A stretch of 64,000 nt of DNA from Tessaracoccus lapidicaptus (lineage in GTDB: Bacteria; Actinomycetota; Actinomycetes; Propionibacteriales; Propionibacteriaceae): the NCBI RefSeq assembly GCF_001693815.1, contig NZ_MBQD01000021.1:124001-188000 (forward strand), given 5' to 3'. The translations under genes and the position numbers were made by a program. Positions 6,550 through 58,941 of the stretch are shown piece after piece. How positions within the stretch are numbered: the first letter of the stretch is position 1; each line of letters opens with the position of its first letter. The notes under the pieces are model-generated. The model was not told the DNA's origin. It saw only the letters and a list, made by a program, of their open reading frames with translations, and made no database searches.

Positions 6550-8936
6550 GCGTCCACCTCCTCCACCGTGTCCGGCATCCACTGGTAGTCCCGCGGGGTG
6601 ACGATCAGCCGCCGCCCGCCGCCCGAGGTGACGAACCTCGTCGTCGACGATCCCACCACCACCAGCGAGTTCATGTCCACCCACTCGGGCTGGAACTCGG
6701 CCAGCGTGCTCATGATCACCTTCTGCCGCGGGCGGCACGCCTGCTGCACCACCGCGACGGGGGTCTCCGGCGAGCGGTGAGCGCCGAGGATTTCGAGCGC
6801 GCGCGGGAGGTGGGCCGTGCGGGTGCGCGACCGGGGATTGTAGAGCGCGACCACGAAGTCACCGACGGCGGCGCCCTGCAGCCGCCGCTCGATGTTGGGC
6901 CACGGGGTGTGGAGGTCGGACAGGGAGATGGTGGCGTGGTCGTGGCCCAGCGGCGCGCCGAGGATCGCGGACACGGCGAGGCTGGCGGTCACGCCGGGCA
7001 CAATGTCGACGTCGATCCCGTCGGTGCCCTGCTCCAGGACGGGGCTGGCCATGGCGTAGACGGCGGGGTCGCCGCCGCAGACCAGGGCCACGTTCTCGCC
7101 GGCGCGCGCGGCCTCGATCGCGGCGGCGGTGCGCGCCTCCTCCGTGCCCATCTTGGAGGCCATGACGCGGACGCCGGGGCGGATGAGGTCGCGGATCTGC
7201 TTGACGTAGGGGCCGTAGCCGACGACGAACGTCGCCTGCTGGAGTCGCTGCTTGGCTCGCGGGGTGAGGAGGTCGCGGACGCCGGGGCCGAGGCCCACCA
7301 CACTCAGCCGCCCCCGGGCGGGGATGCGGCCGACGGCGCACGTCGCGTCGGTGCTGCGCTGCTTGGCGACGATCAGCTCGGCGCCGTGCGCGAGGACGGA
7401 CGCCTCGGCGACCGACGGCGTGCCGACGTGCCCCTCCACCATCGCGCTGGGCGTCGGCACGGGCTGGGCGGCCAGTTCGTCGGCCGGGTAGTCGATGAGC
7501 TTCACGCCTAGCTGCTTGACGAGTTGGAGCAGCCCGATCTCGCCGGCCTTGAGGTCGACGGTGGTGATGGCGGCGACGGACTCGAGGGCGAGGCCGTGCT
7601 CGGCGAGGGTGCGCTCGAGGAGGTCGCGGAGGTGGGCCACGTCGGTGCCGCGGTTGCAGCCCATCCCGACGACGAGGCTCCTCGGGTGGAGGACGACCGT
7701 GCGCCTGAGTGGTTGCGATTCATAGGCTTCGAGGCCGCTTCGCGGCACCTCAGCCAGCGGATGGGGCACCTCAGCCCTCGAATCGGTCACGACGATCGTC
7801 GCGACGGGATCCTCGGCGTCCGCCGACACGTTGGCGGGCAGCGGAGGAAGCGGCCACGGCTGCGACTTCTCCACCCGCACGGGGCGACCGTCGAGGATGG
7901 CCCTCGTCACGCCCGCGACGTCACCGCGGTACGCCCACCCGAGCGTGTCGAGGGCCGGGATGTTGAGCGCATCGGTGGCGGTGGTGAGCACAGGCGTGCC
8001 CCCCGTCGCGTCGGCGATGCGCCTGGCCAGCTCGTTGGCGCCGCCCACGTGCCCGCCCACGAGCGGGACGGCGAACCGGCCCGCCTCGTCGACCACCACC
8101 ACGCCCGGGTCGGACTTCTTGTCCGCGAGCAGCGGGGCCAGGATCCGGGCGGTCGCGCCGAGCGCGAGGTGGGAGACGATGAGGTCGCACTCCCGCCACG
8201 CCCGCACCAGCCCCTCGGCGGCCGGACCGTCGTAGCGGCGGGTGGCGGCGCCGAGAGCGGCGTCGATCGCGTCGGCGTGCCTGCGCGCGGCCTCCGAGTT
8301 GGTGACCTGCCCGACGACTGGGCCGTCGGCGCCGCGCTCCGCGGGCACGGAGTCATCGAGGATGAGCACCACGTTCGGCTCCGCGACCTCGGCGACGGCG
8401 GCCTCCTCGGCGCTCAGCTCGCGCACCCGCTGATCCGGCTCCCCGAGGCGCTCCGCGACCACGTAGCGTCGCGACCATCCCTCGAGCGCCGCGGCCAGCT
8501 CGCGGACCCCGGCGCCCGGTCCGGTCAGCACCGCAACCTTGGGGTGCCGCCGCGTCGCTGCCACGGCGTCGTCGATGGGGCGGCCGTGCGCGGAGACCAC
8601 GAGGGCGTCGTCCCAGGGCAGCGCGACGGCGGCGAACGCGGCCGCCACCGAGCTGACCGCGGGCGTCACCGCGAGGTCGAGCCCCTCCTCGCGGAGGCGG
8701 CGGACGATGCCGTGGAATCCGGGGTCGCCGCTGGCCAGCACCAGCGCGTCGTCGCCGTCGGGCAGGGCCTTCAGCCGTTCGACGGCGGGGCTGAGCGCGC
8801 CGAGGACGACGCGCCGCTCGTCGGGCACGCCGAGGGCGTCGAGGTGGCGGCGCCCGCCGACGACGAGCGCCACCCGTCCCGCGAGGCTGCGGGTGGCCGG
8901 CGAGATCTCGCCGAGGTAGCCGTGAACGTGAATCAT
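6546..8936 (-). CDS. cbiEGH: Triple fusion CbiE-CbiG-CbiH with an inserted repeat
   Basis: 796 aa. CbiE methyltransferase (cobalt-precorrin-7 C5) is about residues 1-200 (IHVHGYLGEIS; LASGDPGFHGI). CbiG (cobalt-precorrin-5A hydrolase) is about 200-535 (GGHVGGANELARRIA; LVVGMGCNRGT). CbiH (cobalt-factor III C17-methyltransferase) is about 540-796 (LSVVGLGPGVRDLLTPRA; CGGDPAVYAMA; ALYNPRSR). A fused cbiEGH gene is known from Propionibacterium freudenreichii. Residues about 388-404 inside CbiG are encoded by a genomic repeat (7725-7759), read in frame. CbiT, the usual partner of CbiE, is not in the window. ATGA overlaps couple it to cbiF upstream and cbiX downstream. The start at 8936 is chosen because the frame upstream of it is non-coding-like and opposes cbiF. 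Confidence 0.92.
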   Translation of the reverse strand: MIHVHGYLGEISPATRSLAGRVALVVGGRRHLDALGVPDERRVVLGALSPAVERLKALPDGDDALVLASGDPGFHGIVRRLREEGLDLAVTPAVSSVAAAFAAVALPWDDALVVSAHGRPIDDAVAATRRHPKVAVLTGPGAGVRELAAALEGWSRRYVVAERLGEPDQRVRELSAEEAAVAEVAEPNVVLILDDSVPAERGADGPVVGQVTNSEAARRHADAIDAALGAATRRYDGPAAEGLVRAWRECDLIVSHLALGATARILAPLLADKKSDPGVVVVDEAGRFAVPLVGGHVGGANELARRIADATGGTPVLTTATDALNIPALDTLGWAYRGDVAGVTRAILDGRPVRVEKSQPWPLPPLPANVSADAEDPVATIVVTDSRAEVPHPLAEVPRSGLEAYESQPLRRTVVLHPRSLVVGMGCNRGTDVAHLRDLLERTLAEHGLALESVAAITTVDLKAGEIGLLQLVKQLGVKLIDYPADELAAQPVPTPSAMVEGHVGTPSVAEASVLAHGAELIVAKQRSTDATCAVGRIPARGRLSVVGLGPGVRDLLTPRAKQRLQQATFVVGYGPYVKQIRDLIRPGVRVMASKMGTEEARTAAAIEAARAGENVALVCGGDPAVYAMASPVLEQGTDGIDVDIVPGVTASLAVSAILGAPLGHDHATISLSDLHTPWPNIERRLQGAAVGDFVVALYNPRSRTRTAHLPRALEILGAHRSPETPVAVVQQACRPRQKVIMSTLAEFQPEWVDMNSLVVVGSSTTRFVTSGGGRRLIVTPRDYQWMPDTVEEVDA
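7725..7759. repeat. 35-nt palindromic repeat inside cbiEGH
   Basis: Identical over 35 bases to 16007-16041 and closely similar to units at 58793-58941. It contains a short hairpin (GCCGC TTC GCGGC) and ends GGCTTCGAGG and CCTCAGCCAGCG. A truncated second unit (GCACCTCAGCC) follows at about 7765. Read in the CbiG frame it adds LAEVPRSGLEA. Confidence 0.85.
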
Positions 8937-9763
8937 CGGTCCTCCTCCAGGACGCCGCGGGTGCCGTGGGCGCGCAGGTCCGCCTGCGCCTCGGGTTCGG
9001 CCGCGCGGTACTCGTGCCGGAAGCCGGGGTGGTAGAGGTGGCTGCGGGTGGCGAGCGGGCCCTCGGCGAGCGCCGGCCCGACGAGCACGACGGTGTGCTT
9101 CCACAGTTTGTGCTCGCGCATGGTCTCGGACAGGTCCTTCAGCTCGCAGCACAGCATCAGTTCGTCGGGCCAGGACACCTGATAGCCGACGATGCAGGGC
9201 GTCTCGGGTGGGTAGCCGCCGGCGAGCAGCTCCTCCTGGAGCGCCTTGTTGCGGGCGGCCGATAGGTAGAGCGCCATGGTGGTGCCGTGGGCGGCGAACC
9301 CGCGGACGGTCTCGCGCGGCGGCATCGGGGTGCGGCCGCCCTCGAGGCGGGTGAGGACCAGGCTCTGCGACACCTCCGGCACCGTCAGCTCGACCTCCAT
9401 CCGCGCGGCCGCGGCCGAGTAGGCGGAGACGCCCGGGACGGACTCGAACTCGAGGCCCAGGCTGCGGATGAGGTCGCGCTGCTCGGCCGTGGCGCCGTAG
9501 ATGGCGGGGTCGCCGGTGTGGACGCGGGCCACGAGGAGGCCCTCGTCGCAGGCGCGGCGGTAGAGGGGCTCGATGTCCTCCAGCGACGCCGACGCGGAGT
9601 CGACGAGTTCGGCCCCCGGCTTGGCGCCCGCGACGATCCCGGGGTGGACCAGGCTCGAGGCCCAGATGATGATGTCGGCCTCCGCGATCACGCGGGCGCC
9701 GCGGACGGTGATGAGATCGGCTGCGCCGGGGCCGGCGCCGACGAAGACGACCTTGCCGCTCAC
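8933..9763 (-). CDS. cbiF: Cobalt-precorrin-4 (C11)-methyltransferase CbiF
   Basis: Tetrapyrrole methylase, 276 aa, using S-adenosylmethionine to methylate C11. The N-terminal GKVVFVGAGPGAADLITVRG is the family's glycine-rich motif. VHTGDPAIYGATAEQ, VPGVSAYSAAAA and LYLSA are further CbiF/CobM signatures. The GTG start at 9763 overlaps the cbiL stop (GTGA), and the stop overlaps the cbiEGH start, so the operon is tightly coupled. The long in-frame extension to 10258 lies opposite cbiL codons and is rejected. Confidence 0.94.
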   Translation of the reverse strand: MSGKVVFVGAGPGAADLITVRGARVIAEADIIIWASSLVHPGIVAGAKPGAELVDSASASLEDIEPLYRRACDEGLLVARVHTGDPAIYGATAEQRDLIRSLGLEFESVPGVSAYSAAAARMEVELTVPEVSQSLVLTRLEGGRTPMPPRETVRGFAAHGTTMALYLSAARNKALQEELLAGGYPPETPCIVGYQVSWPDELMLCCELKDLSETMREHKLWKHTVVLVGPALAEGPLATRSHLYHPGFRHEYRAAEPEAQADLRAHGTRGVLEEDR

Positions 9764-10530
9764 AGCCGGCCCCCCGTCGCCGAGCGGGTGGGGGCGGCCA
9801 GGACGGTGGAGAAGTAGGGGGCGGACTCGCCGTCGGCCAGGTCCGAGAGGCGGACGAGGCGTTGGTTCGGCAGCGAGACGTCCACACCCATGACGGCGTC
9901 GCGGCCCTCGCCGCGCAGCAGCTCCGCGACCTCCGGCAGCCGCCGCCCGCCCTTGTAGGCGACTGTGGAGTCGGCCACGGCGAGCACCTCGCGGAGGCGG
10001 TCCATCCCCGCCGTCACCGGGACGAGAGCGAGCACCTCCTGACCCTCGACCAGCGGCGTGCGGCTGGCAGCGGCCAGGGCCTGCATCGCGGTGATGCCGG
10101 GGATGACCTCGATCTCCACGTCGGTCAGCTGTTCGACGACGTGCGCCGCCAGGTAGGAGAACGTGGAGTAGACGCTGGGGTCGCCGACGGTGGCGAACGC
10201 GACGGTCGCGGCGCCGTCGACGAACGCATCGACGGCGGCCTGGGCGGAGGTCAGCCACGCCTGCTTGCGACGCGGGGAGACTCCCGACTTGTCGGCCATG
10301 GAGAAGGGGACGCGGACGATCCGTGACGCGGCGTCGGGGCAGGCCGCCTGGACGATCCGTTCCGCGCGGCCGGGCCCGTCGCCGGACTCCTCCGTCGCGG
10401 GGACGAGGATCGCGTCGGCTGCCTCAAGGCCGCGCACCGCCTTGACGGTGATCAGCTCCGGGTCCCCGGGGCCGACGCCGACGCCGACGAGTAGTCGCGC
10501 TGAAACGGGGGGAATGTTGGGTACGGTCAT
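9760..10530 (-). CDS. cbiL: Cobalt-factor II (C20)-methyltransferase CbiL
   Basis: Tetrapyrrole methylase, 256 aa, catalysing C20 methylation of cobalt-factor II. Visible signatures are LLVGVGVGPGDPELITVKAV near the N-terminus, FATVGDPSVYSTFSYL, and IPGITAMQALAA. The ATG at 10530 is chosen because it begins right before the family core and follows the riboswitch. First gene of the operon; transcription comes from the region shared with divergent recQ and is controlled by the cobalamin riboswitch. Confidence 0.93.
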   Translation of the reverse strand: MTVPNIPPVSARLLVGVGVGPGDPELITVKAVRGLEAADAILVPATEESGDGPGRAERIVQAACPDAASRIVRVPFSMADKSGVSPRRKQAWLTSAQAAVDAFVDGAATVAFATVGDPSVYSTFSYLAAHVVEQLTDVEIEVIPGITAMQALAAASRTPLVEGQEVLALVPVTAGMDRLREVLAVADSTVAYKGGRRLPEVAELLRGEGRDAVMGVDVSLPNQRLVRLSDLADGESAPYFSTVLAAPTRSATGGRL

Positions 10531-10570
10531 CTGCCGTGGCCTCCTGGGATCGCTCGCCCGAATGGTTGGC

Positions 10571-10664
10571 CGCGCAGGCCCGAGTTCCTGACTGCCCCAT
10601 CTCGGGGTCACAGTGGCGGCACCGTCCCGGACTCACACCGGGTTCCTCGACGTCGCCTGCGCGC
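10571..10664 (-). promoter_or_regulatory. Cobalamin riboswitch upstream of cbiL
   Basis: Read on the minus strand, the leader holds the conserved blocks in the right order: GGAACCCGGTGTGAGTCCGG, GCCGCCACTGTGACCCC and the B12-box-like GGGGCAGTCAGGAAC. The ends GCGCAGGC (from 10662) and GCCTGCGC (to 10572) can pair as the closing stem. It ends about 40 bases before the cbiL start, so it probably represses the whole operon when coenzyme B12 is plentiful. Exact borders are estimates. Confidence 0.9.
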
Positions 10665-10779
10665 AGCGTCAGTCTGTCAGACCCGGCCGCCGGGCATCTG
10701 CGGGGGTCGCCCAGCCTGCGGTCGCCCGCCCGGCGGGCGGGTCCGAGGGCTGTCGCCGGGGCGTGACAAGCTGGCCCCC

Positions 10780-13098
<2,319 letters not shown>

Positions 13099-13268
13099 CG
13101 GACAGCTGGCGATCGGTCTGGGGACGGCCGAAGGCCTGGCGGTCGTGGCACGTTCTCATCAAGACCTAACACCAGCCAACTAACCCGTCACCAAGGGCGT
13201 CGCTACAGCGATCAGCGCGAGCAGGGCAGCCGGTGGCTGGCCAAGGACGCGAGTGAGCGGCAACCTGG

Positions 13269-13511
13269 TCAGTCCCCCTTGTGGAGGCGCTCCCGCCAAG
13301 TGTGAGCTGAGGCATGAATCGCACTGAACACAATGCAGAAGATCAGCCCCGTGGGCACGATGGCGCCTATCGGGCGTGTCTCCAAGCCAACTATCATCAG
13401 TGCTGCGGTGATGCCCGCCATCCCCACTGCAAGAACGGCGGCTGCGGTGAGGAATCGAGACCACCAAGAACGCAGGCCGGTTCGGGGAGAGCGCTCAGTC
13501 ACAGGCATCAT
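13269..13511 (-). CDS. Small two-helix membrane protein, possible immunity protein
   Basis: 80 aa with a basic N-terminus (SPRTGLRSWWSR), two hydrophobic segments (about residues 20-42 and 48-66) and a charged tail. It begins 17 bases before the end of the secreted protein gene upstream (ATG at 13511 or 13508; the other gene's stop is at 13495), which suggests translational coupling. No family is recognised. The size, topology and pairing resemble bacteriocin immunity proteins, but this is inference. Base composition is visibly lower in GC than in neighbouring genes. Confidence 0.6.
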   Translation of the reverse strand: MMPVTERSPRTGLRSWWSRFLTAAAVLAVGMAGITAALMIVGLETRPIGAIVPTGLIFCIVFSAIHASAHTWRERLHKGD

Positions 13512-14076
13512 TGAGGTCCGGGAGTGTACCGATGCCCCAGAACGCCAAAGCGCAAGCAATACCACCAGGCCCGGAAGCGATGGTGACAACACCGCAGATC
13601 GCGGTCGAGGCTGCGAAGAACGAGTACGAGGCCACATATGCCTGCCAGCAGTCAAGCGCGCGGGTACTAACGGGAGGCGTATCGACCCACTCAACGGCTA
13701 GATCAGCACCTGATCCCGAAACTGCAATGAACTTGCCTTCGGTTGCCTCCACAAAACGGGCGATCTCAGCATCGGAGCTGACGGCAGTAAAGAAGTCCAG
13801 GTACACGCGCTCCGCCTCCGATGAGGAGCCCCGCATGATCTGTTCGAACCCATCGCTGTTGGCAAGGGCTGTGCGTCGGTCCCGGAAACCAACGGGATCG
13901 GCGGTTCGTGCCTGACGGACAATCTCGCGCATCCGTCGTTCGTCCTGAGTGGCTGAACTGGATTCCGGGATATCGCTGGACCTCCCCTGAGCGTTTGCAT
14001 GTGGGGCAGCGCTCGCAATGGATGTCGAGTTCACAAGCGCCGTTCCTATCACTAGTGCCAAAGCTAGTCGAGCCAC
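13495..14076 (-). CDS. Secreted protein with Cys-containing hydrophobic C-terminus, bacteriocin-like candidate
   Basis: 193 aa from GTG; an in-frame stop lies just upstream. Residues 1-25 form a signal peptide ending SIASAA. A charged middle (about residues 30-135) precedes a hydrophobic, Gly/Ala-rich C-terminal part with four cysteines spaced roughly C-x18-C-x13-C-x17-C and the segment ASGPGGIACALAFWG. A secreted precursor with a Cys-rich hydrophobic C-terminal peptide is reminiscent of halocin C8-like bacteriocin precursors. No homology can be claimed from inspection. The start has no strong ribosome binding site. It lies in a low-GC island with the small membrane protein. Confidence 0.6.
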   Translation of the reverse strand: MARLALALVIGTALVNSTSIASAAPHANAQGRSSDIPESSSATQDERRMREIVRQARTADPVGFRDRRTALANSDGFEQIMRGSSSEAERVYLDFFTAVSSDAEIARFVEATEGKFIAVSGSGADLAVEWVDTPPVSTRALDCWQAYVASYSFFAASTAICGVVTIASGPGGIACALAFWGIGTLPDLNDACD

Positions 14077-14484: not shown

Positions 14485-14491
14485 CCTCGGG

Positions 14492-15949
14492 TCAGCGGGC
14501 GAGGGCGAGCAGGCGATCCAGGTCGGCGTGCGCCTCAAGGGCGTCGGCGACCGTCTCGATCATCGTCTCACGCCGGGCCGCGAAGCCGGGGGCACCGTCG
14601 GCGGGGGCCCAGTTGCGCCCGGCCAGGGACGCGACCTCCTGCAGCCAGGCCCGGCGGAAGCCGTCGGATTCGAGAGACCCGTGCCACATCGTCCCCCAGA
14701 CCGGGCCGGCGTGGACGCCTTCGAGGAACTCCTCGTGTCCGTCGTCGACCCGCACCCGACCGTGGTGGATGACGTAGCCCTCGACGTCGTGCCCCCGCCA
14801 GCTTCCCGACGGCCGGCCCAGCACCTTGTCCGGGTGGAACACCGTGTCCGCGGGCAGCAGCCCCAGTCCGGGGACGGCGCCCGCGTGGCCGGCCTCGACG
14901 GGGTCCGTGATGGTACGCGTCAGCATCTGGAAGCCCCCACAGATCCCCAGCACCGGCCGCCCCTCCTCGGCGCGTGCCTCGATCGCGGCCGCTATCCCCG
15001 TCTCCCGCAACCACGCCAGGTCCGTCAACGTGGACCGCGACCCCGGCAGCACGGCGAGATCCGCCGCCGCAACGGTGGCTGGATCCGTCGTCACCACGAC
15101 GTCGACCCCCGGCTCCTGGGCCAGCGCATCGACGTCGGTGGCGTTGGAGATGCGCGGCAGGCGGACGACGGCCACCCGCAGCGTCCCGCTCCCTGTTGAT
15201 GCGGCGGGCCGGGCGTCGCCGCGCCACCGGCCGACCTCGAGCGCGTCCTCGCCGTCGAGCCAGACGCCCGGCAGCCAGGGCAACACCCCGAACGACGGCA
15301 GCCCGCAGCGGCGCGTGAGCTCGGTGAGTCCGGGGTCGAGGATGGCCTGGTCGCCGCGGAACTTGTTGATCAGATACCCGGCCAGGAGGGCGCGGTCGTC
15401 GTCGTCGAGAAGACCCCAGGTGCCGTAGATGGAGGCCAGCACTCCACCGCGGTCGATGTCGCCGACGAGCACCACCGGCAGGTCGAACGCTCTGGCCAGG
15501 CCCATGTTGGTGTAGTCGCCGTCGCGCAGGTTGATCTCGGCCGGAGAGCCCGCGCCCTCGCAGATCACCAGCTCGTGCGCGGCGACCAGCTCCCGATACG
15601 CCTCGTGGGCGGCCTCGGCGAGCAGGCGGCGACCGGTGGCGTACTCCCCCGCCTCCAGTGCGCCCGCGGGCTCGCCGCGGAGCACGACGAAGGAGCGCCG
15701 GTCGCTGCCGGGCTTGAGCAGCACCGGGTTCATCGCCGACGTCGGCGTCTTGCCCGCCGCGATCGCCTGCAGGTACTGCGCACGGCCGATCTCCGCGCCG
15801 TCGGCGCACACCATGGAGTTGTTGCTCATGTTCTGAGCCTTGAACGGCACCACGTCGATCCCGCGACGGCGTGCGGCCCGGCAGAGCCCGGTGACCACCA
15901 GCGACTTGCCCGCGTCCGACGACGTCCCCGCGATCAGGATCCCGGTCAT
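14492..15949 (-). CDS. cbiP: Cobyric acid synthase CbiP/CobQ
   Basis: Glutamine-dependent amidase that converts adenosylcobyrinate a,c-diamide to adenosylcobyrate in four amidations, 485 aa. The N-terminal ATP-binding domain shows IAGTSSDAGKSLVVTGLCRA (P-loop-like), VPFKAQNMSNNSMV and CEGAGSPAEINL. The C-terminal glutaminase domain carries the nucleophile Cys in LGICGGFQML and the His in GYVIHHGRV. The ATG at 15949 overlaps the cbiB stop (ATGA). No riboswitch was found near this operon. Confidence 0.95.
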   Translation of the reverse strand: MTGILIAGTSSDAGKSLVVTGLCRAARRRGIDVVPFKAQNMSNNSMVCADGAEIGRAQYLQAIAAGKTPTSAMNPVLLKPGSDRRSFVVLRGEPAGALEAGEYATGRRLLAEAAHEAYRELVAAHELVICEGAGSPAEINLRDGDYTNMGLARAFDLPVVLVGDIDRGGVLASIYGTWGLLDDDDRALLAGYLINKFRGDQAILDPGLTELTRRCGLPSFGVLPWLPGVWLDGEDALEVGRWRGDARPAASTGSGTLRVAVVRLPRISNATDVDALAQEPGVDVVVTTDPATVAAADLAVLPGSRSTLTDLAWLRETGIAAAIEARAEEGRPVLGICGGFQMLTRTITDPVEAGHAGAVPGLGLLPADTVFHPDKVLGRPSGSWRGHDVEGYVIHHGRVRVDDGHEEFLEGVHAGPVWGTMWHGSLESDGFRRAWLQEVASLAGRNWAPADGAPGFAARRETMIETVADALEAHADLDRLLALAR

Positions 15950-16962
15950 GCGCCACTCCCCTTCCGGACTGATTTCACCCGCACGCACGCAAGGTCACGC
16001 TTCTTAGGCTTCGAGGCCGCTTCGCGGCACCTCAGCCAGCGAGAGGAGCCCGCCACCGCGGCGAGTCCCGTCGCCATCGCGGTCACCACGCCCACGAGCC
16101 GGGCCGCCTTCCGCACCTCGGCCGCGCGGGGGCGCGGGCCGTCGCCGAGGAGGCCACGCTCCTCCACACGGGAGAAGTACACGTTGCTGCCACCCAATTG
16201 CACGCCCAGGGCGCCGGCCCAGGCCGCCTCGCACCAGCCACCGTTGGGTGAGGGGTGGTTGCGGGCGTCGCGGCGTAGCACCCGGAAGGCCTCCGCCGTC
16301 GACCCGCCGACGACCGGGGCGGCCACACAGGCGAGCGCGCCGGTGAGGCGGGCCGGGATGTAGTCGAGAGCGTCGTCGAACCGCGCCGAGGCCGTCCCGA
16401 AGCGGGCGTAGCGGTCGTTGCGGTGGCCCACCATGGCGTCGAGCGTGTTGACCGCCCGGTGGGCGAGAAGGCCGGGGATCCCGGCGACGGCACCCCAGAA
16501 CAGCGACGCGACCACGGCGTCGGCCGTGTTCTCCGCCATCGACTCGACGGTGGCGCGGGCGAGCTCGGGCTCGTCGAGGCCGGCGGGGTCGCGGCCGCAG
16601 AGGTGGCCGAGCCGGGCGCGGGCGCCGTCGAGATCGCCGTCGTCGAGGCGGTCGGCCATGAGCCTGCCCTCGCGGGCGAGGCTGCGGGCGCCGAGGACGG
16701 CCCAAGTGGCCAGCGCGGTCGCGGCGACGTGCGTGACGGGGTGACGACGTGTGGCGCGCTCGGCCGCGACCCCTGCCGCGACGATCGGCGCCACCGTCGC
16801 GGCAGCGAACGCGGCGCCGCGGGCGCGGTCGTCGGCGTACAGAGACCGCTCGACGCGCGACGCGAAGGTCCCGAACCACGCGACGGGGTGGTGTCTGGCC
16901 GGATCCCCAAGCACGGCGTCGGCCGCCACCCCGAGGACGATGCCGAGCGCGCGCGTGATCAC
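15946..16962 (-). CDS. cbiB: Adenosylcobinamide-phosphate synthase CbiB, C-terminus encoded by a repeat
   Basis: Membrane protein that attaches aminopropanol phosphate to cobyrate. Family signatures include LGDPARHHPVAWFG, ESMAENTADAVVASLFW, RAVNTLDAMVGHRNDRY, and HPSPNGGWCEAAWAGAL. The GTG at 16962 gives 338 aa; no strong ribosome binding site is visible, and a start up to 17022 is possible. The last 30 or so residues (from SSRWLRCREAASKPKK) are basic and unlike the family. Bases 16007-16041 of this part are the repeat also found in cbiEGH, so the native tail seems to have been replaced or extended. Confidence 0.9.
   Translation of the reverse strand: MITRALGIVLGVAADAVLGDPARHHPVAWFGTFASRVERSLYADDRARGAAFAAATVAPIVAAGVAAERATRRHPVTHVAATALATWAVLGARSLAREGRLMADRLDDGDLDGARARLGHLCGRDPAGLDEPELARATVESMAENTADAVVASLFWGAVAGIPGLLAHRAVNTLDAMVGHRNDRYARFGTASARFDDALDYIPARLTGALACVAAPVVGGSTAEAFRVLRRDARNHPSPNGGWCEAAWAGALGVQLGGSNVYFSRVEERGLLGDGPRPRAAEVRKAARLVGVVTAMATGLAAVAGSSRWLRCREAASKPKKRDLACVRVKSVRKGSGA
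16007..16041. repeat. 35-nt palindromic repeat at the 3' end of cbiB
   Basis: Same 35 bases as 7725-7759; the flanking TTCNTA is shared too. Read in the CbiB frame it gives RWLRCREAASK, a different frame from the copy in cbiEGH. Confidence 0.85.
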
Positions 16963-17033
16963 GGTGCCGACGCTAGCAGTAGCCAGAGGCGGGTCTGGCG
17001 GGCGCCTCGGCAAAGGCTCCAAGTCCCGGAGCG

Positions 17034-21546: not shown

Positions 21547-21550
21547 CCCC

Positions 21551-21840
21551 CTCGCTCACTGACGTCGCGGGCAGTTCCGTTCACTGAGGTCGCGGGCCGA
21601 CGGCGCAGCCGGCGCGTCCGAGTCTCGAAGTCGCCGCCCCCTCGCTCACTGAGGTCGCGGGCCGACGGCGCAGCCGGCGCGCCCGAGTCTCGAAGTCGCC
21701 GCCACAGGCGGCGATCACCCTTCCCACAGAGATGGGCACCTCCGGTGCCCGCTTCGAGACTCCCCCGCGGCGACTGCGTCGCCGGGGCGGAACCTCAGCG
21801 AGCGGAACTCTCCACTGCCTCGCCGGGGCGGAACCTCAGC
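21551..21840. repeat. Repeat cluster downstream of bglX
   Basis: Two direct units (21581-21638 and 21646-21703) agree in 57 of 58 bases. Each has an inner GC hairpin (GCCGACGGCGCAGCCGGC) and the ends CACTGAGGT and GAGTCTCGAAG. A third unit is inverted (21750-21808), and partial units sit at 21551 and 21816. The ends resemble those of the 35-nt repeat at 7725, 16007 and 58793, so both may belong to one superfamily. Together with the short frame at 21836 they fill the 410-base gap between bglX and the CNNM gene. Confidence 0.85.
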
Positions 21841-48631: not shown

Positions 48632-48635
<4 letters not shown>

Positions 48636-51615: not shown

Positions 51616-51623
51616 GATGGCTC

Positions 51624-52739
51624 TCAAACTCGGAGGTGGCAGGGGCCGGCGGCGGCCGACACGCAGGTCTGGACGAGGACCGGATCTTCGGGATTGGCGG
51701 TGGTGACCTCGCCCGTGCGCAGGTCTCGCACGCTGCCGTCGGTGAGGGGCAGGACGCAGTTGAAGCAGATGCCCATCCGGCAGCCCGACGGCATGAGCAC
51801 ACCGGCGTCCTCACCGGCGGCGAGCAGGGTCGTGGCGGCGTCGGCCGCGACCGTGACCCCGGCGCCCGTGAAGGTGACCTCGCCGCCGTCGCCGACGGCG
51901 TGGATGCGGGGCCGGAACCGTTCGGTGTGCAGGCGTCCCGAGAGGCCTGCGGCGGCCCAGTGGGCTTCTGCGTCGTCGAGCAGTCCGGTGGGCCCGCAGA
52001 CCCAGACGTCGCGGTCGCGCCAGTCCGGGACCACGCCGTCGAGGGCGGTCACGGGGAGGATGCCGTCGGTGGCGGTGAACCGGGTGACGAGGGAGATGCG
52101 GCCTTGGGCCGCGAGCGCGGTGAGGTCGCGCCGGAACAACATGTCGCCGCTGGTGGGGGCGGAGTGCACGACCACGACGTCCCGCGGGAGGGGATCGTTG
52201 CGGAGCATGCCCATGACGGGGGTGATTCCGCTGCCGGCGGTGAGGAAGAGGACCCTGTCCGGGGCGGGGTCGGGCAGTACGAAGTCCCCGGTGGCCTGGT
52301 CCAGCATGAGCACCGCGCCGGGGCGCAGGCCGTGGCGGACATGGTTGCTGACCCTGCCATCGGGGATGGCGCGGACGGTGATGGAGATGGTCTCGGCGCC
52401 GACGGGGCTCGTGATCGAGTAGGCGCGCCAGTGGCGCACTCCGTCGACGTCGACACCGATGCGCGTGTACTGCCCCGGGCGGTGCCCCCGCCACCCGCGG
52501 CCGGGCCGGATGAGGATCGTGGTCGCGGTGGGGGTCTCCGGGGTGACCGCGACGACCCGCCCCCGCAGGTCCGCGCCGGAGCGGAGCGGGTCGACCAGAT
52601 CGATGAAGTCCTCGGGCAGCAGGGGCGTCGCGAGGGCCTCGGCCACCCGGCGCGCACCGCGACCCACGCGGGCAAGGGCGCGCTTGACGGAGGAGCGGTC
52701 CGCCTGTGGCGGGGCGACGACGTCGCCCGGTGAGGTCAC
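51624..52739 (-). CDS. Ferredoxin reductase with C-terminal 2Fe-2S domain
   Basis: 371 aa. FAD-binding motif HWRAYSITSP, NAD(P)-binding GSGITPVMGML and C-terminal 2Fe-2S ferredoxin with CRMGICFNC and a later Cys in VQTCVSAA. Supplies electrons to the desaturase whose gene follows 8 bases after its stop. Related to Rv3230c-type oxidoreductases. The promoter contains the 20-bp palindrome 52751-52770. Confidence 0.92.
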   Translation of the reverse strand: MTSPGDVVAPPQADRSSVKRALARVGRGARRVAEALATPLLPEDFIDLVDPLRSGADLRGRVVAVTPETPTATTILIRPGRGWRGHRPGQYTRIGVDVDGVRHWRAYSITSPVGAETISITVRAIPDGRVSNHVRHGLRPGAVLMLDQATGDFVLPDPAPDRVLFLTAGSGITPVMGMLRNDPLPRDVVVVHSAPTSGDMLFRRDLTALAAQGRISLVTRFTATDGILPVTALDGVVPDWRDRDVWVCGPTGLLDDAEAHWAAAGLSGRLHTERFRPRIHAVGDGGEVTFTGAGVTVAADAATTLLAAGEDAGVLMPSGCRMGICFNCVLPLTDGSVRDLRTGEVTTANPEDPVLVQTCVSAAAGPCHLRV

Positions 52740-52750
52740 TCCCCCAGGTT

Positions 52751-52770
52751 AACCTACGGTTGCGTAGGTT
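52751..52770. promoter_or_regulatory. 20-bp palindromic operator
   Basis: AACCTACGGTTGCGTAGGTT: perfect 8-bp half-sites around GTTG. It lies 12 bases before the reductase start and 38 bases before the divergent oxidoreductase. TetR-type symmetry; no regulator gene is adjacent. Confidence 0.75.
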
Positions 52771-52807
52771 CAAGTGCTTCGGCCGTGAGGGTACGTAGGA
52801 TCGGGGC

Positions 52808-54403
52808 ATGGAGCGCAGCGTCGACGCCGTCGTCATCGGAGCGGGCCACCACGGGCTGGTGGCCGCGGCTCTCCTGGCGGACGCGGGCTGGGACGTCGCC
52901 GTGTTCGACGGCAGGCCGGTGCCCGGGGGCGCAGTGGCCCACCGGCACGTGGACGGATTCGTCGTCGACGAGTTCTCCTCCTGCTATCCCCTCGGCATGG
53001 CCTCCCCCGTGCTCCGGGACCTGGATCTCGAGGACCACGGCCTCACCTGGGCCGACCACCGGCCGGCGCTCGTGCACGTGGCCGACGGCACCGACGCCGA
53101 GGGCTCCGTCGTGGCGGCGACGGCGGAGGACACCGCCGTGGCCCTCGACGCGGACCACCCGGGCGACGGCGACGCCTGGCTCGCGCTCGTGTCCGGCTGG
53201 CGGCGGGTGAGGGAGCCCCTCATCGCGGCCCTGCTCACCGACTGGCCCCCGGTGCGACCCGGCGCGCGCCTCCTCCGCACGCTCGGCGGGTCGGGGCTGC
53301 TGGACTTCGCCCGCTTCGCGCTGCTGCCCTCGGACCGCATGGGGCAGGAGTGGTTCGGTGGCGGGCGGGCCCGCGACCTCCTGGCCGGCAACGCCATGCA
53401 CGCCGACGTGTCTCCGCTGGCCCCGGTCAGCGGGCTGATGGGGTTCATCATGACGATGCTGGCGCAGGATGTGGGCTTCCCGGTGCCCCGCGGCGGCGCC
53501 GGGCACCTGGCGGGCGCGCTGGCCGCCCGCGCCCGCGCCGCCGGGGCGGTCGTCCACCTGGAGTGGCCCGTCGCCGGCATCAGCGTCACCGCCGGCCGTG
53601 CCGACGGCGTGCGCCTGGCCGACGGCACGACGGTCCGGGCGCGCCGCGCCGTGCTGGCCGACGTGTCCGCGACCGCCCTCTACCGGGCCCTCCTGCCCGC
53701 GGACGCGGTGCCCAGCGGCCTGCTGCGCCGGCTCGACCGGTTCGCCTGGGACCCGCCCACCCTCAAGCTCAACCTGCGGCTCGACGCCCCCATGCCGTGG
53801 CGGGCGGCCCGGGCGGCGGGCGCCACCGTCGTGCACGCCGGGCACTCCTCGCGGGGGCTGGCGACCTGGCACGCGGAGATCGCCACCGGGCGGGTGCCCG
53901 CGCGCGCCTTCGCGTTGGTGGGGCAGATGACGACGGCGGACGCGTCGCGCTCGCCGGCAGGCACCGAGTCGCTATGGGCCTACACGCATCTCCCACGCAG
54001 CGGGCCGGCGGGCGCCGCCCGGTCGCTGGACACCCTCGAGGCCCTCTTCGACGACCTCGCCCCAGGCTGGCGCGTCCTCGAACGCGGACGCTGGGTGCAG
54101 ACACCCGCTGATCTGCACGCCGCCGACCCGAACCTCGTCGACGGCGCCCTCGGCTCCGGCACCACGCAGCTGTTCCAGCAGGGCCCCTGGCGGCCGCTGG
54201 CCGGGCTCGGGGGGCCCCTCACCCATGTGGAGGGTCTGTACCTGGCCTCGGCAGCCACGCATCCGGGCGGGGGCGTGCACGGCGGCGCCGGCTACTCCGC
54301 CGCCCGGGCTGCGCTGCGGGGGGCCCGCTGGTGGTCGCGACCGGTCGGGCGGGCCACCACCAGGGTCCAGCTGTGGCTGCAGCGTCGCGATCCGGACTTC
54401 TGA
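52808..54403 (+). CDS. FAD-dependent oxidoreductase, phytoene-desaturase-like (PYROXD2 group)
   Basis: 531 aa. N-terminal dinucleotide motif DAVVIGAGHHGLVAAALLAD, then the amine oxidase/carotenoid desaturase fold, with GGAGHLAGALAARARA and a C-terminal ASAATHPGGGVHGGAGYSAA FAD motif. The substrate is unknown; no carotenoid genes are near. Divergent from the desaturase operon across a shared operator, so coordinated with lipid modification. Confidence 0.88.
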   Translation: MERSVDAVVIGAGHHGLVAAALLADAGWDVAVFDGRPVPGGAVAHRHVDGFVVDEFSSCYPLGMASPVLRDLDLEDHGLTWADHRPALVHVADGTDAEGSVVAATAEDTAVALDADHPGDGDAWLALVSGWRRVREPLIAALLTDWPPVRPGARLLRTLGGSGLLDFARFALLPSDRMGQEWFGGGRARDLLAGNAMHADVSPLAPVSGLMGFIMTMLAQDVGFPVPRGGAGHLAGALAARARAAGAVVHLEWPVAGISVTAGRADGVRLADGTTVRARRAVLADVSATALYRALLPADAVPSGLLRRLDRFAWDPPTLKLNLRLDAPMPWRAARAAGATVVHAGHSSRGLATWHAEIATGRVPARAFALVGQMTTADASRSPAGTESLWAYTHLPRSGPAGAARSLDTLEALFDDLAPGWRVLERGRWVQTPADLHAADPNLVDGALGSGTTQLFQQGPWRPLAGLGGPLTHVEGLYLASAATHPGGGVHGGAGYSAARAALRGARWWSRPVGRATTRVQLWLQRRDPDF

Positions 54404-54418
54404 CCTGCAGCGCGGGGC

Positions 54419-54925
54419 TCAGCCGTGGGGATGGACGGTGAACCGCGACACAGCGGTCGCCTCGCTCACCTGCACCACCCTCGCCCGCTGATCCTCGCAC
54501 CGCTCCACCATCGACTGGCAGAAGGCCTTGTCCAGGCGCTCGTCGACGTCGGCGAGCACCACGAGGGTCTCCCACATCATCTGCTGCGCCCGCACGGCGG
54601 CGGCCAGCGCGTCGAGTTCCGTCTGGGTCATCAGCCCGTCGTGGTTGCGGGTGGGGTTGAGCGGGTTGAGCCGGCCCGCCGCTTGCACCAGCCCGGCCAC
54701 CATGTTGCGGGCGGTGCTGACCTCGTAGCCGAGGTCCTCGATGAGGTCCGCGACCGTTGAGTGCGACTCGGCCAGCTCGTCATGGAGCCGTTCGAAGGTG
54801 GCGGCGTAGGGCGTGCCGGCCCACGTGTCCGCCGCCGCCTTGAACGCCTTGACCCCCGCATCCGCCGCGACGAGATGCTGATTGAGATAGGCGGAGTACT
54901 TGTCGTGATCGAGTTCGACCGCCAT
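54419..54925 (-). CDS. Hypothetical all-helical protein
   Basis: 168 aa, no signal or membrane segment. Predicted mainly helical (LNQHLVAADAGVKAFKAAAD; LHDELAESHSTVADLIEDLG), perhaps a four-helix bundle. No family recognised with certainty. A GGAGGT sequence precedes the ATG. Stands alone between the oxidoreductase and the phosphatase. Confidence 0.7.
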   Translation of the reverse strand: MAVELDHDKYSAYLNQHLVAADAGVKAFKAAADTWAGTPYAATFERLHDELAESHSTVADLIEDLGYEVSTARNMVAGLVQAAGRLNPLNPTRNHDGLMTQTELDALAAAVRAQQMMWETLVVLADVDERLDKAFCQSMVERCEDQRARVVQVSEATAVSRFTVHPHG

Positions 54926-54955
54926 GGCGACCTCCTGTGTCGGTGTCGTCCCAAC

Positions 54956-55504
54956 CTAACCCGTCGGCACCGACACGACCTGGCCGTTGGCGAACTCCAC
55001 CCACGCGACGTCGCGGTGGCCCCGGCCGGCCAGGACCGCGAGGAGGATGCGCAGCGTGTCGCCGTGCGAGACGACGGCCAGGTGTTCGTCGTGGCTGTGG
55101 CCCGATCGCAGCTCGGCGACGAACGCGCTGAGCCGGCCGTGCACCTCGGCCACCGATTCTCCCCCGCCCCAGCGCACCTCACTGATGTGGAGGCCGTCCG
55201 GCACGGGTTCCTCGGTCAGGTCGTCGTAGCTCATCCCCTCCAGCGACCCCAACGCCTGTTCCCGCAGCAGCGCGCTCGTGCGCAACGGGGCGCCGTGCCG
55301 CGCCGCGATGACCTCCGCGGTCTGGACTGCGCGCAGCTGATCCGAGGCGACCACCCCCGTCAACGGCACGCCGTCGAGGACCCGGGCCGCCGCCTCGGCC
55401 TGGCGGAGGCCGAGCGCCGTGAGCGGGACATCCATCCGTTGGCCCTGCAGGCGGCGCTCCAGGTTCCACGTCGACTGGCCGTGCCGCACCAGGTGCAGGA
55501 TCAC
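54956..55504 (-). CDS. Histidine phosphatase family protein
   Basis: 182 aa. The catalytic LVRHGQSTWN, the Arg in ASDQLRAVQTAE, and the second His in VVSHGDTLR define the phosphoglycerate mutase-like superfamily. CobC (alpha-ribazole phosphatase) belongs to it and would fit a B12 producer, but the gene lies beside a spermidine-synthase-like gene, so the assignment is open. Starts 4 bases after the upstream stop. Confidence 0.88.
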   Translation of the reverse strand: MILHLVRHGQSTWNLERRLQGQRMDVPLTALGLRQAEAAARVLDGVPLTGVVASDQLRAVQTAEVIAARHGAPLRTSALLREQALGSLEGMSYDDLTEEPVPDGLHISEVRWGGGESVAEVHGRLSAFVAELRSGHSHDEHLAVVSHGDTLRILLAVLAGRGHRDVAWVEFANGQVVSVPTG

Positions 55505-55508
55505 CGCC

Positions 55509-56312
55509 TCACCACCCGCGGCCCGTCGGCCCGGGCGACGGCTCCGCCGCGCCGTCGTGGTAGGGCTCCGCGCCCCCGGGCCAGGACCTCGCGGACCGGC
55601 CGCTGATCCAGCGGTATCCGACGGTGAGGCCAGCCGAGGCCCGCTCGATGCCGGCGATATCCGGCCGGGTGTCGGCGGCCGCCAGGACCATGTTGCCGAA
55701 CCGCTTGCCCTTCTGCACCACCGGTTCCATGCCGATGATCAGGTGTGGCCAACGCTCGGCCAGCCCGGCCGCGAGGCGCTTGGCCCAGGCGAACGGAGCA
55801 CGGTCCGTGACGTTGTAGATCACCACCGCCTCCTCGCGCCCGACACGCCGCAGCTCGTCGAGGCACTCGGCCGTCGCCAGTTCCCCCGGCACCTGGGAGC
55901 CGTCGAAGGCGTCGACGATCACCACATCGGCCCACGCCTCGGGCATCGCGGACAGTCCCGCCCGCCCATCGACGTCGCGCACCTTGATGCCGGAGCGCGA
56001 CGGCAAGGGGATCTTGCGCCGCACCTCGTCGGTGAGCTCGACATCGGGTTCGCACACGACCTGCGCCGTCCCCGGGCGGCGCCACGCCACCCATCGCGGG
56101 ATCGACATGCCCGCCCCGCCCAGGTGGACGATCCGCAGGCGCCGGTCGGCGGGGGCGCCGAGGACGGTGTGGTCGAGCACCATGGCGATGTGCTGGACGT
56201 ACTCGAACGCCAGGAAGTCGGGCCGGGCGGGGTCGACCCAGGACTGCGACGTCAGGCCGAAGCGCACCCAGAACGCGCCCGGGGTGTCCCGGTCGGGGAT
56301 GAGGCGCTCCAT
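55509..56312 (-). CDS. Spermidine-synthase-like methyltransferase-fold protein
   Basis: 267 aa. Rossmann-like core with IVHLGGAGMSIPRWVAWRRP (glycine loop), VCEPD and VDAFDGSQVPGELAT, as in polyamine synthases. The aminopropyltransferase active-site Asp motifs are only partly kept, so activity is uncertain. ATG at 56312 fits the family start. Forms an operon with the histidine phosphatase; divergent from the MATE gene with a 36-base gap. Confidence 0.8.
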   Translation of the reverse strand: MERLIPDRDTPGAFWVRFGLTSQSWVDPARPDFLAFEYVQHIAMVLDHTVLGAPADRRLRIVHLGGAGMSIPRWVAWRRPGTAQVVCEPDVELTDEVRRKIPLPSRSGIKVRDVDGRAGLSAMPEAWADVVIVDAFDGSQVPGELATAECLDELRRVGREEAVVIYNVTDRAPFAWAKRLAAGLAERWPHLIIGMEPVVQKGKRFGNMVLAAADTRPDIAGIERASAGLTVGYRWISGRSARSWPGGAEPYHDGAAEPSPGPTGRGW

Positions 56313-56348
56313 TCGCCCGAGCCTAGCCCGCGTAGACTCCGGCTCGCC

Positions 56349-57656
56349 ATGAGCATCTCCCGTCGCATCCTCGCCCTCGCCGTGCCCGCCTTCGCCGCGC
56401 TGGTGGCTCAGCCGCTCATGATGCTCGCGGACACGTGGATCGTCGGACACCTGGGCACGGTGCCGCTGGCCGGTCTGGGGATCGGCAGCGGCCTGCTGAC
56501 GACCGTCACCGGGCTGATGATCTTCCTCGCGTACGGGTCGACGGCGGTCGTGGCCCGCCGGATCGGAGCGGGACAGCGCGCCGACGGCATCGGGCTGGGC
56601 GTGCAGGCCATGTGGTTGGCGGCCCTCCTCGGCGCCGTCGTCGGCGTGCTCGTCTGGGCTGCGGCGCCGTGGCTGGCCACGGCCCTCGGCGCCGACGGGG
56701 AGGTGCGCACCCAGGCGGTGACCTACCTGCGCTGGTCCATTCCGGGGCTGCCCGGCATGCTCGTCATGCTCGCGGCCACCGGCACCTTCCGGGGCCTCGC
56801 CGACGCCAGGACCCCGCTCGTGCTGTCCATCGGCAGCGCGGCCCTCAACCTCGTCCTCAACGCCGCCCTGGTGTTCGGGCTCGGGATGGGCATCGCCGGC
56901 GCCGCGCTCGGCACCGCGGCCGCCGAGACGACCTTGGGAGCCACCGCCACCGCCCTCGTGGCTCTCCAGGCCCGCCGGGCCGGCGCGCGGATGCGGCCGT
57001 CACGGCGAGGCATGGCCGGAAGCCTGGCCGTCGGGACGCCCCTCCTGCTGCGCACGGTGACACTGCGGATCGCGCTGCTCATCACCACGTACGTCGCGGC
57101 CGCGCAGGGTGCGGCCGGCCTGGCGGCGCACCATGTGGTCATGCAGGTGTGGGGGCTCATGGCGTACGCGCTCGACGCGCTCGCGATCGCCGGCCAGACC
57201 ATCATCGGCACGGCTCTCGGCGCGGGCGACGCGGGGGAGGCCCGCTCGTCGACCCGCCTGATGACCTGGTGGTCGGTCGCAGCGGGTGGGGTCATCGGCG
57301 TCGCCGCGGCGCTGCTGCGCCAGCCTGTCGCGGCCTTCTTCGCGCCCGACGACGACGTGCGGGCACTGGTCGCGTGGCTGCTCGTCATCGTCGCGGCGAC
57401 ACTGCCGCTGGCCGGCTACGTCTACCTGCTCGACGGCGTGCTGATCGGCGCGGGCGACGGCCGCTACCTCGCTGCTGCGGGCGTCGTCACCGTGGTGGCG
57501 TACGCGCCGGTGGCGCTGCTCGCGCTGACCGCGGCCCAGGGGCGGCAGGGGCTGACGTGGCTGTGGATCGCGTTCACCGTGGTCTTCATGGGTGCGCGCG
57601 CCGTGACGCTGGGGCTGCGGGCGCGCGGCGACCGCTGGCTCCGGCTGGGCGGCTGA
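56349..57656 (+). CDS. MATE-family multidrug/metabolite exporter
   Basis: 435 aa with about twelve membrane segments. MATE features include AVPAFAALVAQPLMMLADTW, VGHLGTVPLAGLGIG and FRGLADARTPL. DinF-like subgroup. Uses an ion gradient to expel organic compounds; substrate unknown. The ATG at 56349 fits the family; the longer open frame from 55419 overlaps two genes of the other strand and is rejected. Confidence 0.92.
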   Translation: MSISRRILALAVPAFAALVAQPLMMLADTWIVGHLGTVPLAGLGIGSGLLTTVTGLMIFLAYGSTAVVARRIGAGQRADGIGLGVQAMWLAALLGAVVGVLVWAAAPWLATALGADGEVRTQAVTYLRWSIPGLPGMLVMLAATGTFRGLADARTPLVLSIGSAALNLVLNAALVFGLGMGIAGAALGTAAAETTLGATATALVALQARRAGARMRPSRRGMAGSLAVGTPLLLRTVTLRIALLITTYVAAAQGAAGLAAHHVVMQVWGLMAYALDALAIAGQTIIGTALGAGDAGEARSSTRLMTWWSVAAGGVIGVAAALLRQPVAAFFAPDDDVRALVAWLLVIVAATLPLAGYVYLLDGVLIGAGDGRYLAAAGVVTVVAYAPVALLALTAAQGRQGLTWLWIAFTVVFMGARAVTLGLRARGDRWLRLGG

Positions 57657-57659
57657 GGG

Positions 57660-57682
57660 GTCCTGCCGGTACACCGCAGGAC
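57660..57682 (+). terminator. Short hairpin after the MATE gene
   Basis: GTCCTGC pairs with GCAGGAC, with a possible inner GGT/ACC stem, 4 bases after the stop. Confidence 0.55.
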
Positions 57683-57767
57683 AGGGCCTCCCTCGGATCG
57701 CGGTGAGGGGGTGAGATGGTTGGTGGCGTGTGCACCAGGCACGCGCACGTGAACTGAGGAGATATCC

Positions 57768-58802
57768 ATGCGTGGAGTCATCATGTACGGCCACGGCGAC
57801 GTGCGCGTCGAGGACCGCGAGCGGCCCTCCCTCGTCAAGCCCACGGACGCGATCCTGCGCGTCACGGCCTCCTGCATCTGCGGATCCGACCTGTGGCCCT
57901 ACCGCGGGATCGAGAAGCAGGCCGGGCCCACGCCGATGGGCCACGAGTACGTCGGGGTGGTCGAGGAGGTGGGAAGCGACGTGCGCACGGTCAAGCCCGG
58001 CGACTTCGTCGTGGGCTCCTTCTTCGCCTCCGACAACACGTGCGAGATCTGCGCCTCGGGGTATCAGACGCACTGCGTGCAGCGCGAGGCTGCAGCGTCG
58101 ACGGGCGCGCAGTCGGAGTACCTGCGCGTCCCGCTGGCCGACGGCACGCTGGTGGCCACCCCGGGCGTGCCCGACGACGACCTGGTCCCCTCGCTGCTGG
58201 CCGCCTCCGATGTGCTCGGCACCGGCTGGTTCGCCGCGGTGGCGGCCGAGGCCGGACCCGGGAAGACGGTCGCGGTGGTGGGAGACGGCGCCGTGGGCCT
58301 CCTGGGCATCCTGGCCGCCCGGCAGCTGGGCGCCGAGCGCGTCATCGCCATGAGCCGGCACGCGGACCGGCAGGACTTGGCCCGGGAGTTCGGCGCGACG
58401 GACATCGTCGAGGAGCGCGGCGACGAGGGTGTCGCCCGCATCAAGGAACTCACCGACGGTCTGGGTGCCCACTCGACGATCGAGGCGGTCGGCACGCAGG
58501 AGTCGATGCTGCAGGCGATCCGCGCCACCCGCGCGGGCGGGCATGTCGGCTACGTGGGCGTGACGCACGACGTCAGCCTCCCTGGCATGGAACTGTTCTT
58601 CTCGGGCGTCCACCTGCACGGCGGGCCCGCGCCCGTGCGCCGGTTCCTGCCCGACCTCATCGATCTGATCTGGCGCCGGGAGATCGACCCGGGAAAGGTG
58701 TTCGACCTCACGCTCCCCCTGGATCGGGCGGCCGAGGGCTACACCGCGATGGACGAGCGTCGCGCGATCAAGGTGCTGCTGACTCCCCCCACCGCTGGCT
58801 GA
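57768..58802 (+). CDS. Zinc-dependent alcohol dehydrogenase family protein
   Basis: 344 aa. The catalytic zinc site includes CICGSD and GHEYVGVVEEVG; a structural-zinc-like region is NTCEICASGYQTHC, with fewer cysteines than usual. NAD(P)-binding GDGAVGLLGILAARQLGAER. Substrate unknown. GAGGAGATATCC precedes the ATG. The last codons (PPTAG) and the stop TGA fall inside the genomic repeat at 58793. Confidence 0.9.
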   Translation: MRGVIMYGHGDVRVEDRERPSLVKPTDAILRVTASCICGSDLWPYRGIEKQAGPTPMGHEYVGVVEEVGSDVRTVKPGDFVVGSFFASDNTCEICASGYQTHCVQREAAASTGAQSEYLRVPLADGTLVATPGVPDDDLVPSLLAASDVLGTGWFAAVAAEAGPGKTVAVVGDGAVGLLGILAARQLGAERVIAMSRHADRQDLAREFGATDIVEERGDEGVARIKELTDGLGAHSTIEAVGTQESMLQAIRATRAGGHVGYVGVTHDVSLPGMELFFSGVHLHGGPAPVRRFLPDLIDLIWRREIDPGKVFDLTLPLDRAAEGYTAMDERRAIKVLLTPPTAG

Positions 58803-58941
58803 GGAGCCGCGCAGCGGCCTCCCCACCGCTGGCTGAGGTGCCGCGCAGCGGCCTCGAAGCCTCGAGAACATGACCCTGTCAACCCACGTTTCTCAGGCTT
58901 CGAGGCTCGTCGCTGCGCTCCTCGCTCCTCAGCCAGCGGGG
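58793..58941. repeat. Repeat cluster after the alcohol dehydrogenase
   Basis: Three units of the family seen at 7725 and 16007: 58793-58821 and 58827-58862 in one direction, 58895-58941 inverted with a longer inner stem. The two outer sets face each other, so the RNA could form a large hairpin. The first unit supplies the stop codon of the dehydrogenase. Confidence 0.85.

Follow-up and report, generated by a model that had tools for sequence, protein, structure and literature searches.

The stretch analysed here, hereafter the window, comprises 64,000 nucleotides of Tessaracoccus lapidicaptus (contig NZ_MBQD01000021.1, C21:124001-188000) and carries a palindromic repeat in or at three genes, namely a fused cbiE-G-H gene, cbiB and a zinc alcohol dehydrogenase gene (Table 1). 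A first-pass annotation of the letters had reported that 35 bases at 7725-7759 recur unchanged at 16007-16041; we observed that the identity covers 37 bases (7723-7759 and 16005-16041). No other exact direct repeat in the window is as long, and the longest in 30 dinucleotide shuffles of the same sequence measured 15-19 bases. Beyond the 35-mer, and on one side only, weaker conservation continues for a further ~10-12 bases. The three related units that had been placed near 58793-58941 were recovered as well, as a truncated, a full and a longer inverted copy. The 35-mer had been taken as the repeating unit, which our comparison did not bear out: it is the S arm of a two-armed composite of ~115 bp, and it is probable that the repeat represents one arm of a non-autonomous element resembling the REPINs, doublets of repetitive extragenic palindromic (REP) sequences that form a hairpin, as described in excerpts of Bertels and Rainey (2011, PMC3116915).

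Table 1. Repeat units and adjacent genes in the window (positions count from the first letter of the window)
Feature	Position	Strand	Basis
S arm with tail, in frame in the cbiG part of fused cbiE-G-H	7713..7761	-	model R1, 74.5 bits, E 8.5e-22 (copy in training set)
12 bases of the arm (GGCTGAGGTGCC) repeated immediately upstream of the copy in cbiG	7765..7776	-	sequence
Open reading frame with cbiE, cbiG and cbiH domains	6546..9887	-	domain matches start near residue 338
S arm with tail, forming the cbiB C-terminal tail	15995..16043	-	model R1, 74.9 bits (copy in training set); DNA comparison with G119, G219 and G292
cbiB with repeat-derived tail	15946..17022	-	tail comparison with relatives
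cobQ, next gene, ATG overlapping the cbiB stop	14492..15949	-	Pfam on the longer open reading frame 14495-15988
Zinc alcohol dehydrogenase, last residues AG and stop TGA within the repeat	57768..58802	+	sequence, Pfam
Truncated S arm, source of the dehydrogenase stop codon	58794..58821	+	sequence, BLAST with consensus arms
S arm of the sole composite found in the window	58828..58861	+	BLAST with consensus arms
34-nt centre of the window composite	58862..58895	.	composite sequence comparison
L arm (42 nt) of the window composite, inverted	58896..58937	-	BLAST with consensus arms

In CbiG, the repeat is read GCT|GAG and contributes LAEVPRSGLEA within ...RAEVPHPLAEVPRSGLEAYES..., exactly as the first-pass annotation had it, lengthening the linker that precedes the CbiG_C domain. 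CbiG is present in 25 of the 39 genomes of the genus. Measured from WPLPPLP..NV to V(V/T)LHP, the linker spans 53 residues in T. lapidicaptus and 51 in G219, which carry the repeat there, against 34-41 residues in the 18 repeat-free relatives that were measured and 36 in G328 (judged by eye); this comparison leaves out G391, where the frame is broken, and G119, which has a run of N at the site. Palindromes of similar design and different sequence occupy the same linker in two other Tessaracoccus lineages: in G290 (locus L099), whose linker is 46 residues long and whose two-arm pattern matches 23 times genome-wide, and in G243 (locus L115), with 18 such matches. Since the palindrome of G290 is oppositely oriented and the one in G243 precedes the IVVTD motif rather than following it, at least two insertions into this linker were independent, and probably three. 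The linker of G045, of normal length, contains CGCTGGTTGAGA, which we left unclassified. The first ~320 residues of the open reading frame that encodes the fused protein are probably non-coding in that frame, because of where its domain matches begin (Table 1).

At cbiB, the reading CTG|AGG as a C-terminal tail was likewise confirmed (...SSRWLRCREAASKPKKRD... at the end of CbiB). In G292, the stop codon of cbiB overlaps the start of cobQ, and in G219 the element separates the end of cbiB from cobQ; in T. lapidicaptus and G119 the original end of cbiB is gone and the frame continues through the repeat. CbiB consequently extends for 99 residues after its NGGW motif in T. lapidicaptus versus 69-85 in relatives without the repeat, yet G221 reaches 96 residues with no element, so that a long CbiB tail is by itself no proof of insertion. 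The 33 genomes with a match yielded 30 CbiB loci (three gave none), and an arm-like word near the end of cbiB was found in none of the 27 loci (L125-L151) outside T. lapidicaptus, G119 and G219, with L151, a cut contig, counted neither way. T. lapidicaptus possesses a second cbiB-like gene, 54% identical, at G000:C20:108312-109262.

The alcohol dehydrogenase uses the third frame, and the proposal that the repeat supplies its stop codon proved correct: the protein ends ...LLTPPTAG-stop, with the TGA lying in the truncated first unit. The G119 dehydrogenase ends LLTPPSAG-stop with a TGA that is likewise repeat-derived, and that of G219 stops just ahead of its element. Among 14 further relatives (53-84% identical), 13 use their own stop, with the following 300 bases free of a two-armed element, and one was unreadable; four of the 13 carry a single isolated arm-like word with a mismatch. 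L162, for which the dehydrogenase window was misplaced, was counted neither way. In total, copies of the repeat lie in or at six T. lapidicaptus genes. The end of an L-ribulose-5-phosphate 4-epimerase-like gene is also supplied by the repeat (...QPTPAG-stop), and a beta-galactosidase gene has an in-frame copy (DNA match of 50 bits and reading of the sequence, for the T. lapidicaptus gene alone). A short-chain dehydrogenase (SDR) gene (L223 2772-3101; G000:C21:62772-63101) contains eight in-frame 14-residue units, PLAEVPTESASTLD and a last variant, in the first part of the protein, outside its PDB match (query 198-462); the G219 counterpart has two units.

Comparison with orthologues revealed an insert or an altered end at all three genes of the window. 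In relatives that lack the repeat, the CbiG linker is shorter and no repeat stands at the end of CbiB or of the dehydrogenase, so that the copies in the three genes are insertions. Contrary to the recent insertion that had been considered, they are not recent within the species: each gene site is shared with at least one of two close relatives, G119 and G219, which are congeneric with T. lapidicaptus, and therefore all three are older than the species split. We compared flanks for 54 sites, many of which had no counterpart in the stretches compared. Three sites are empty in T. lapidicaptus and filled in G119 and/or G219, namely C21:203384-203420, which is a clean case, C21:142335-142480, where unrelated sequence lies between the T. 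lapidicaptus flanks, and C22:50323-50392, where G119 has an N run beside the cluster; C22:153290 is filled in T. lapidicaptus and empty in G119, with ~500 bases containing other repeats involved. The idea of a short, spreading element that is tolerated in coding DNA is supported both by the inserts and altered ends at the three genes and by such presence/absence differences between close relatives.

The organization of the element became apparent in G119 and G219. The complete composite measures ~110-116 bp and consists of an L arm (42 nt) and an S arm (34 nt), inverted tail to tail around a centre of 33-34 nt; the arm consensus is CCCGCTGGCTGAGGTGCC...CTCGAAGCCTAAGAAACGCG. Arms were located by BLAST with consensus arms, excluding matches with coverage <80% or identity <82%, which replaced a permissive regular expression that gave many chance matches. 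In the stretches examined first, all 31 of 31 tail-to-tail pairs joined an L to an S arm (15 L-S and 16 S-L along the contig), and the gap was 33-34 nt in 25 of them. Further G219 stretches, selected for containing model matches, added 14 pairs, 12 of them L+S and two S+S. Combined, L+S pairs make up 43/45 versus a random expectation of ~46% (p 7e-13, tandem copies being non-independent). For the 150-nt region 58793-58942 of the window, the folding energy is -95 kcal/mol (z -7.2). The S arm can be read through in five of its six frames, and the remaining one yields TGA.

Copies are far more numerous than the window suggests, both in T. lapidicaptus and in its relatives. In the 3.09-Mb, 27-contig T. 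lapidicaptus assembly, a 17-base probe gave 16 exact matches (reversed control, 0), and a covariance model built on nine copies recovered, at E<1e-4, 19 matches distributed over ten sites, with a single array accounting for eight of them. At E<=0.01 the model recovered at least 94 arm matches in G219 and at least 76 in G119; since 150 of 1625-1970 first-look candidates were scored in each of the three genomes, all of these counts, that for T. lapidicaptus included, may be lower bounds. A stricter two-arm pattern occurred in 52 of 391 genomes of the order, with up to 113 copies (G388; reversed control, 0). An exact-arm scan of a named collection, possibly without the T. lapidicaptus genome, found 40 stretches, every one of which belongs to Tessaracoccus sp. 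MC1679 or to a metagenome-assembled genome of an unclassified member of the Propionibacteriaceae (JAPUEL01). In the G219 and G119 stretches, 36 of 45 sites were intergenic and 9 touched a gene according to a crude gene caller, whose calls were unvetted, versus 6 of 9 BLAST-defined sites touching a gene in T. lapidicaptus (Fisher p 0.0095); the raw calls for the latter were 8 of 9, two of which were set aside (a spurious short open reading frame and an over-long start), and the stretches had been chosen around copies. This difference suggests that copies inside genes may outlast others.

The arms vary between genomes in a patterned way. The TGAG...TCGA frame is kept while the outer stem changes in step. 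At the variable outer pair, 150 listed places, counted by eye, had T-A in 140, C-G in 5, T-G in 3 and C-A in 2 (p 2e-6), and a stricter recount over loci L042-L071 had T-A in 31, C-G in 2 and no other pair. Within the S hairpin, nine sequences, a thin sample, had one pair changed on both sides, which was equalled by 214 of 500 shuffles. Families with GGC/GCC, GGT/ACC, CCC/GGG and CCT/AGG outer stems may coexist or replace each other; CCT/AGG arms occur in G243, and CCC/GGG arms lie beside the repeat at C22:153k. In a phylum-wide sample, the pattern GGTTGAG...TCGAAACC was present in 83 of 396 genomes, with more than four matches only in G401 (34), G690 (33) and G680 (17), which belong to the same class (control, 0 in each). 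We tentatively propose, as something possible rather than probable, that these repeats are part of a further REPIN-like superfamily in Actinomycetia without RAYTs (REP-associated tyrosine transposases), defined by a YTGAG...TCGAR frame, a stem and inner hairpin changing in step, pairs of unlike arms and dispersal by an unrecognised enzyme, three families of which would have hit the CbiG linker in three lineages of a single genus.

Several explanations can be offered for a dispersed element of this kind. RAYT transposases are regarded as the movers of REPINs, and PMC2817692 describes RAYT genes flanked by REPs. The inverted doublets, singlets and clusters seen here, which recall those in the excerpts of the REPIN (PMC3116915) and REP (PMC3733652) reports, could mark an ordinary REP/REPIN family that lost its RAYT after dispersal. 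The distribution of the enzyme makes this unlikely. The RAYT check that the first-pass annotation had suggested came back negative: PF01797 (Y1_Tnp), the one kind of transposase sought genome-wide, had no match at E<=0.001 in the T. lapidicaptus genome, and in the search of 391 genomes it occurred in 18, none of them the element-rich G388, G028, G281, G219 or G119, and together with the two-arm pattern in one only (G350), so that the two show no association (Fisher p 0.49). Furthermore, neither the GTAG nor the CGTC tag stands at the arm ends of the consensus examined. Closer to the repeat sites, the earlier remark that no transposase is near holds for the 13 surrounding genes scanned with Pfam (one without a family match), the other genes of the window having been left unscanned. 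A miniature inverted-repeat transposable element (MITE) is a short, non-autonomous element with inverted ends, and one that descends from a DDE transposon and has terminal inverted repeats resembling CCCCGCTGGCTGAGG would suit the inverted ends and the size near 115 bp. We judge it improbable, however, since target-site duplications of 4-8 bp, sought as the same word on both flanks at equal offsets, were found in 0 of 31 composites (3-bp words occurred at chance level), and the outer stem varies in step while TGAG/TCGA stays constant, which would be unexpected for ends bound by a transposase. A parent transposon was not found either, PF01797 being the one transposase family sought genome-wide.

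It can also be argued that the composites are selected two-way terminators or stabilisers of mRNA 3' ends, spread by recombination, with the in-gene copies being accidental. The strong folding of the composite agrees with such a role, as does its placement between convergent genes in 16 of the 23 intervals for which both neighbouring genes were called (extra G219 stretches, crude gene calls) against an assumed 25%, but new sites, in-gene arrays and an insertion in the middle of CbiG are not accounted for by this function alone, and we give it a low probability. A different source of mobility would be an unrecognised nuclease encoded beside the arms. In G219, the two top-scoring copies each lie just upstream of one copy of a duplicated 520-residue orphan open reading frame (L340 2342-3901 and L184 1568-3049; 92% identical), which looks HNH-like, and homology between the loci runs from the arms to the gene end with short breaks, one copy being followed by an inverted arm. 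These are two cases only; the frame had no Pfam, NCBIfam or PDB match, and no further copy turned up in the other stretches searched, which included 414 kb of the 3.09-Mb T. lapidicaptus genome. As a general explanation the nuclease is very improbable, and as a mobiliser the orphan frame is a lead only.

A non-autonomous, REPIN-like element therefore remains the reading that we prefer, and several observations weigh against it: (i) no movement was observed, and the filled/empty differences might be losses rather than gains; (ii) the search for PF01797 brought no mobilising enzyme to light, other kinds of transposase not having been sought genome-wide; (iii) two of the 45 pairs are S+S; (iv) taken by itself, the L arm has no folding advantage over shuffled sequence (z 0.18), and isolated S arms fold weakly (z -1.0 to -2.4); and (v) the direction of the centre is not fixed relative to the arms, as the 31 composites read from L to S show TTGTC in 19 and GACAA in 10, one of these having both, and neither in three. 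A strictly inherited unit would not predict such a mix, and both directions would fit inversion by recombination between the arms.

Under the REPIN-like reading, the complete L+S element would fold as one long hairpin, and its multiplication, for the most part at the ends of genes, would have taken place in the ancestry of three closely related species of the Tessaracoccus group. We infer that it was moved by an enzyme whose substrate is the paired hairpin in single-stranded DNA, and that this enzyme may since have been lost or may have escaped recognition. In the T. lapidicaptus lineage most copies would be missing or reduced to single arms and the remainder would lie largely in genes or at their ends, presumably by loss in this lineage rather than by gain in its relatives, with the copies inside genes possibly being merely tolerated.

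Likeness to known systems goes only part of the way. With REPINs, as presented in the PMC3116915 excerpts, the element shares the inverted doublet as its unit, the singlets, the tandem clusters and the fold into a single hairpin; in contrast, no RAYT was found here, the arms are unlike each other with nearly fixed lengths, and there is no GTAG head. Because the tag and the RAYT association fail, we say that the element works like a REPIN and do not call it one. Tagged REPs, which according to excerpts of Di Nocera et al. (2013, PMC3733652) donate stop codons, prefer extragenic sites and occasionally lie in genes, are similarly short palindromes that form dimers, mainly outside genes with some in open reading frames, and the CGTC REPs of that report are likewise without a known transposase. 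The stop donated by a REP end is TAG in the tagged REPs and TGA here, and the present element has no tag, its fixed part being the internal TGAG/TCGA frame while the outer stem varies. A REP is a multicopy, imperfect palindrome 20-40 nt long, a description that the 34- and 42-nt arms match, although the L arm is a poor hairpin alone. The main text of PMC3733652 does not contain the words Nocardioides, Propionibacter-, Actinobacteria or actinomycet-. The parallel that had been drawn with Rickettsia palindromic elements, which a 2024 review (PMC10969869) gives as ~150 bp long with 44 occurrences inside the genes of a single species, stands for the in-frame tolerance of palindromic DNA within unrelated genes (here cbiG, SDR and beta-galactosidase) and falls short in placement: the sites in element-rich relatives of T. 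lapidicaptus are mostly intergenic, as with REPs, and the two are likened by description only. Among the open-access literature matches listed, we found no description of the repeat family; four of six arm core strings were absent from them, and those for CTCAGCCAGCG were unrelated to bacterial repeats, judged by title.

Other palindromes were noted in passing. At 21547-21840 of the window lie palindromic repeats (CGCTCACTGAGGTCGCGG...GAGTCTCGAAGTC) that also have the TGAG/TCGA frame; they comprise a pair of 61-mers, 97% identical to each other, and a partner in inverted orientation. Another repeat family (CCCTTCGAGAC...TCCTCAGGGA) alternates with S arms at L235 ~8100-8700 (G000:C22:153.1-153.7k). 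A 60-bp near-perfect palindrome at window 5251-5310, with 30-nt arms that are 93% complementary, lies between the convergent open reading frames 3977-5233 and 5335-6738 and is perhaps a two-way terminator.

To conclude, the REPIN-like family is dense, it varies in its sites from one closely related species to the next, and no RAYT was found in the genomes that carry it, which makes other movers of such elements directly testable. With their shared and unshared sites, the three closely related genomes (19, 76 and 94 arm matches) offer a natural series in which selfish palindromes can be followed as they become protein, in the form of tails, linkers, stops and an eight-repeat array.

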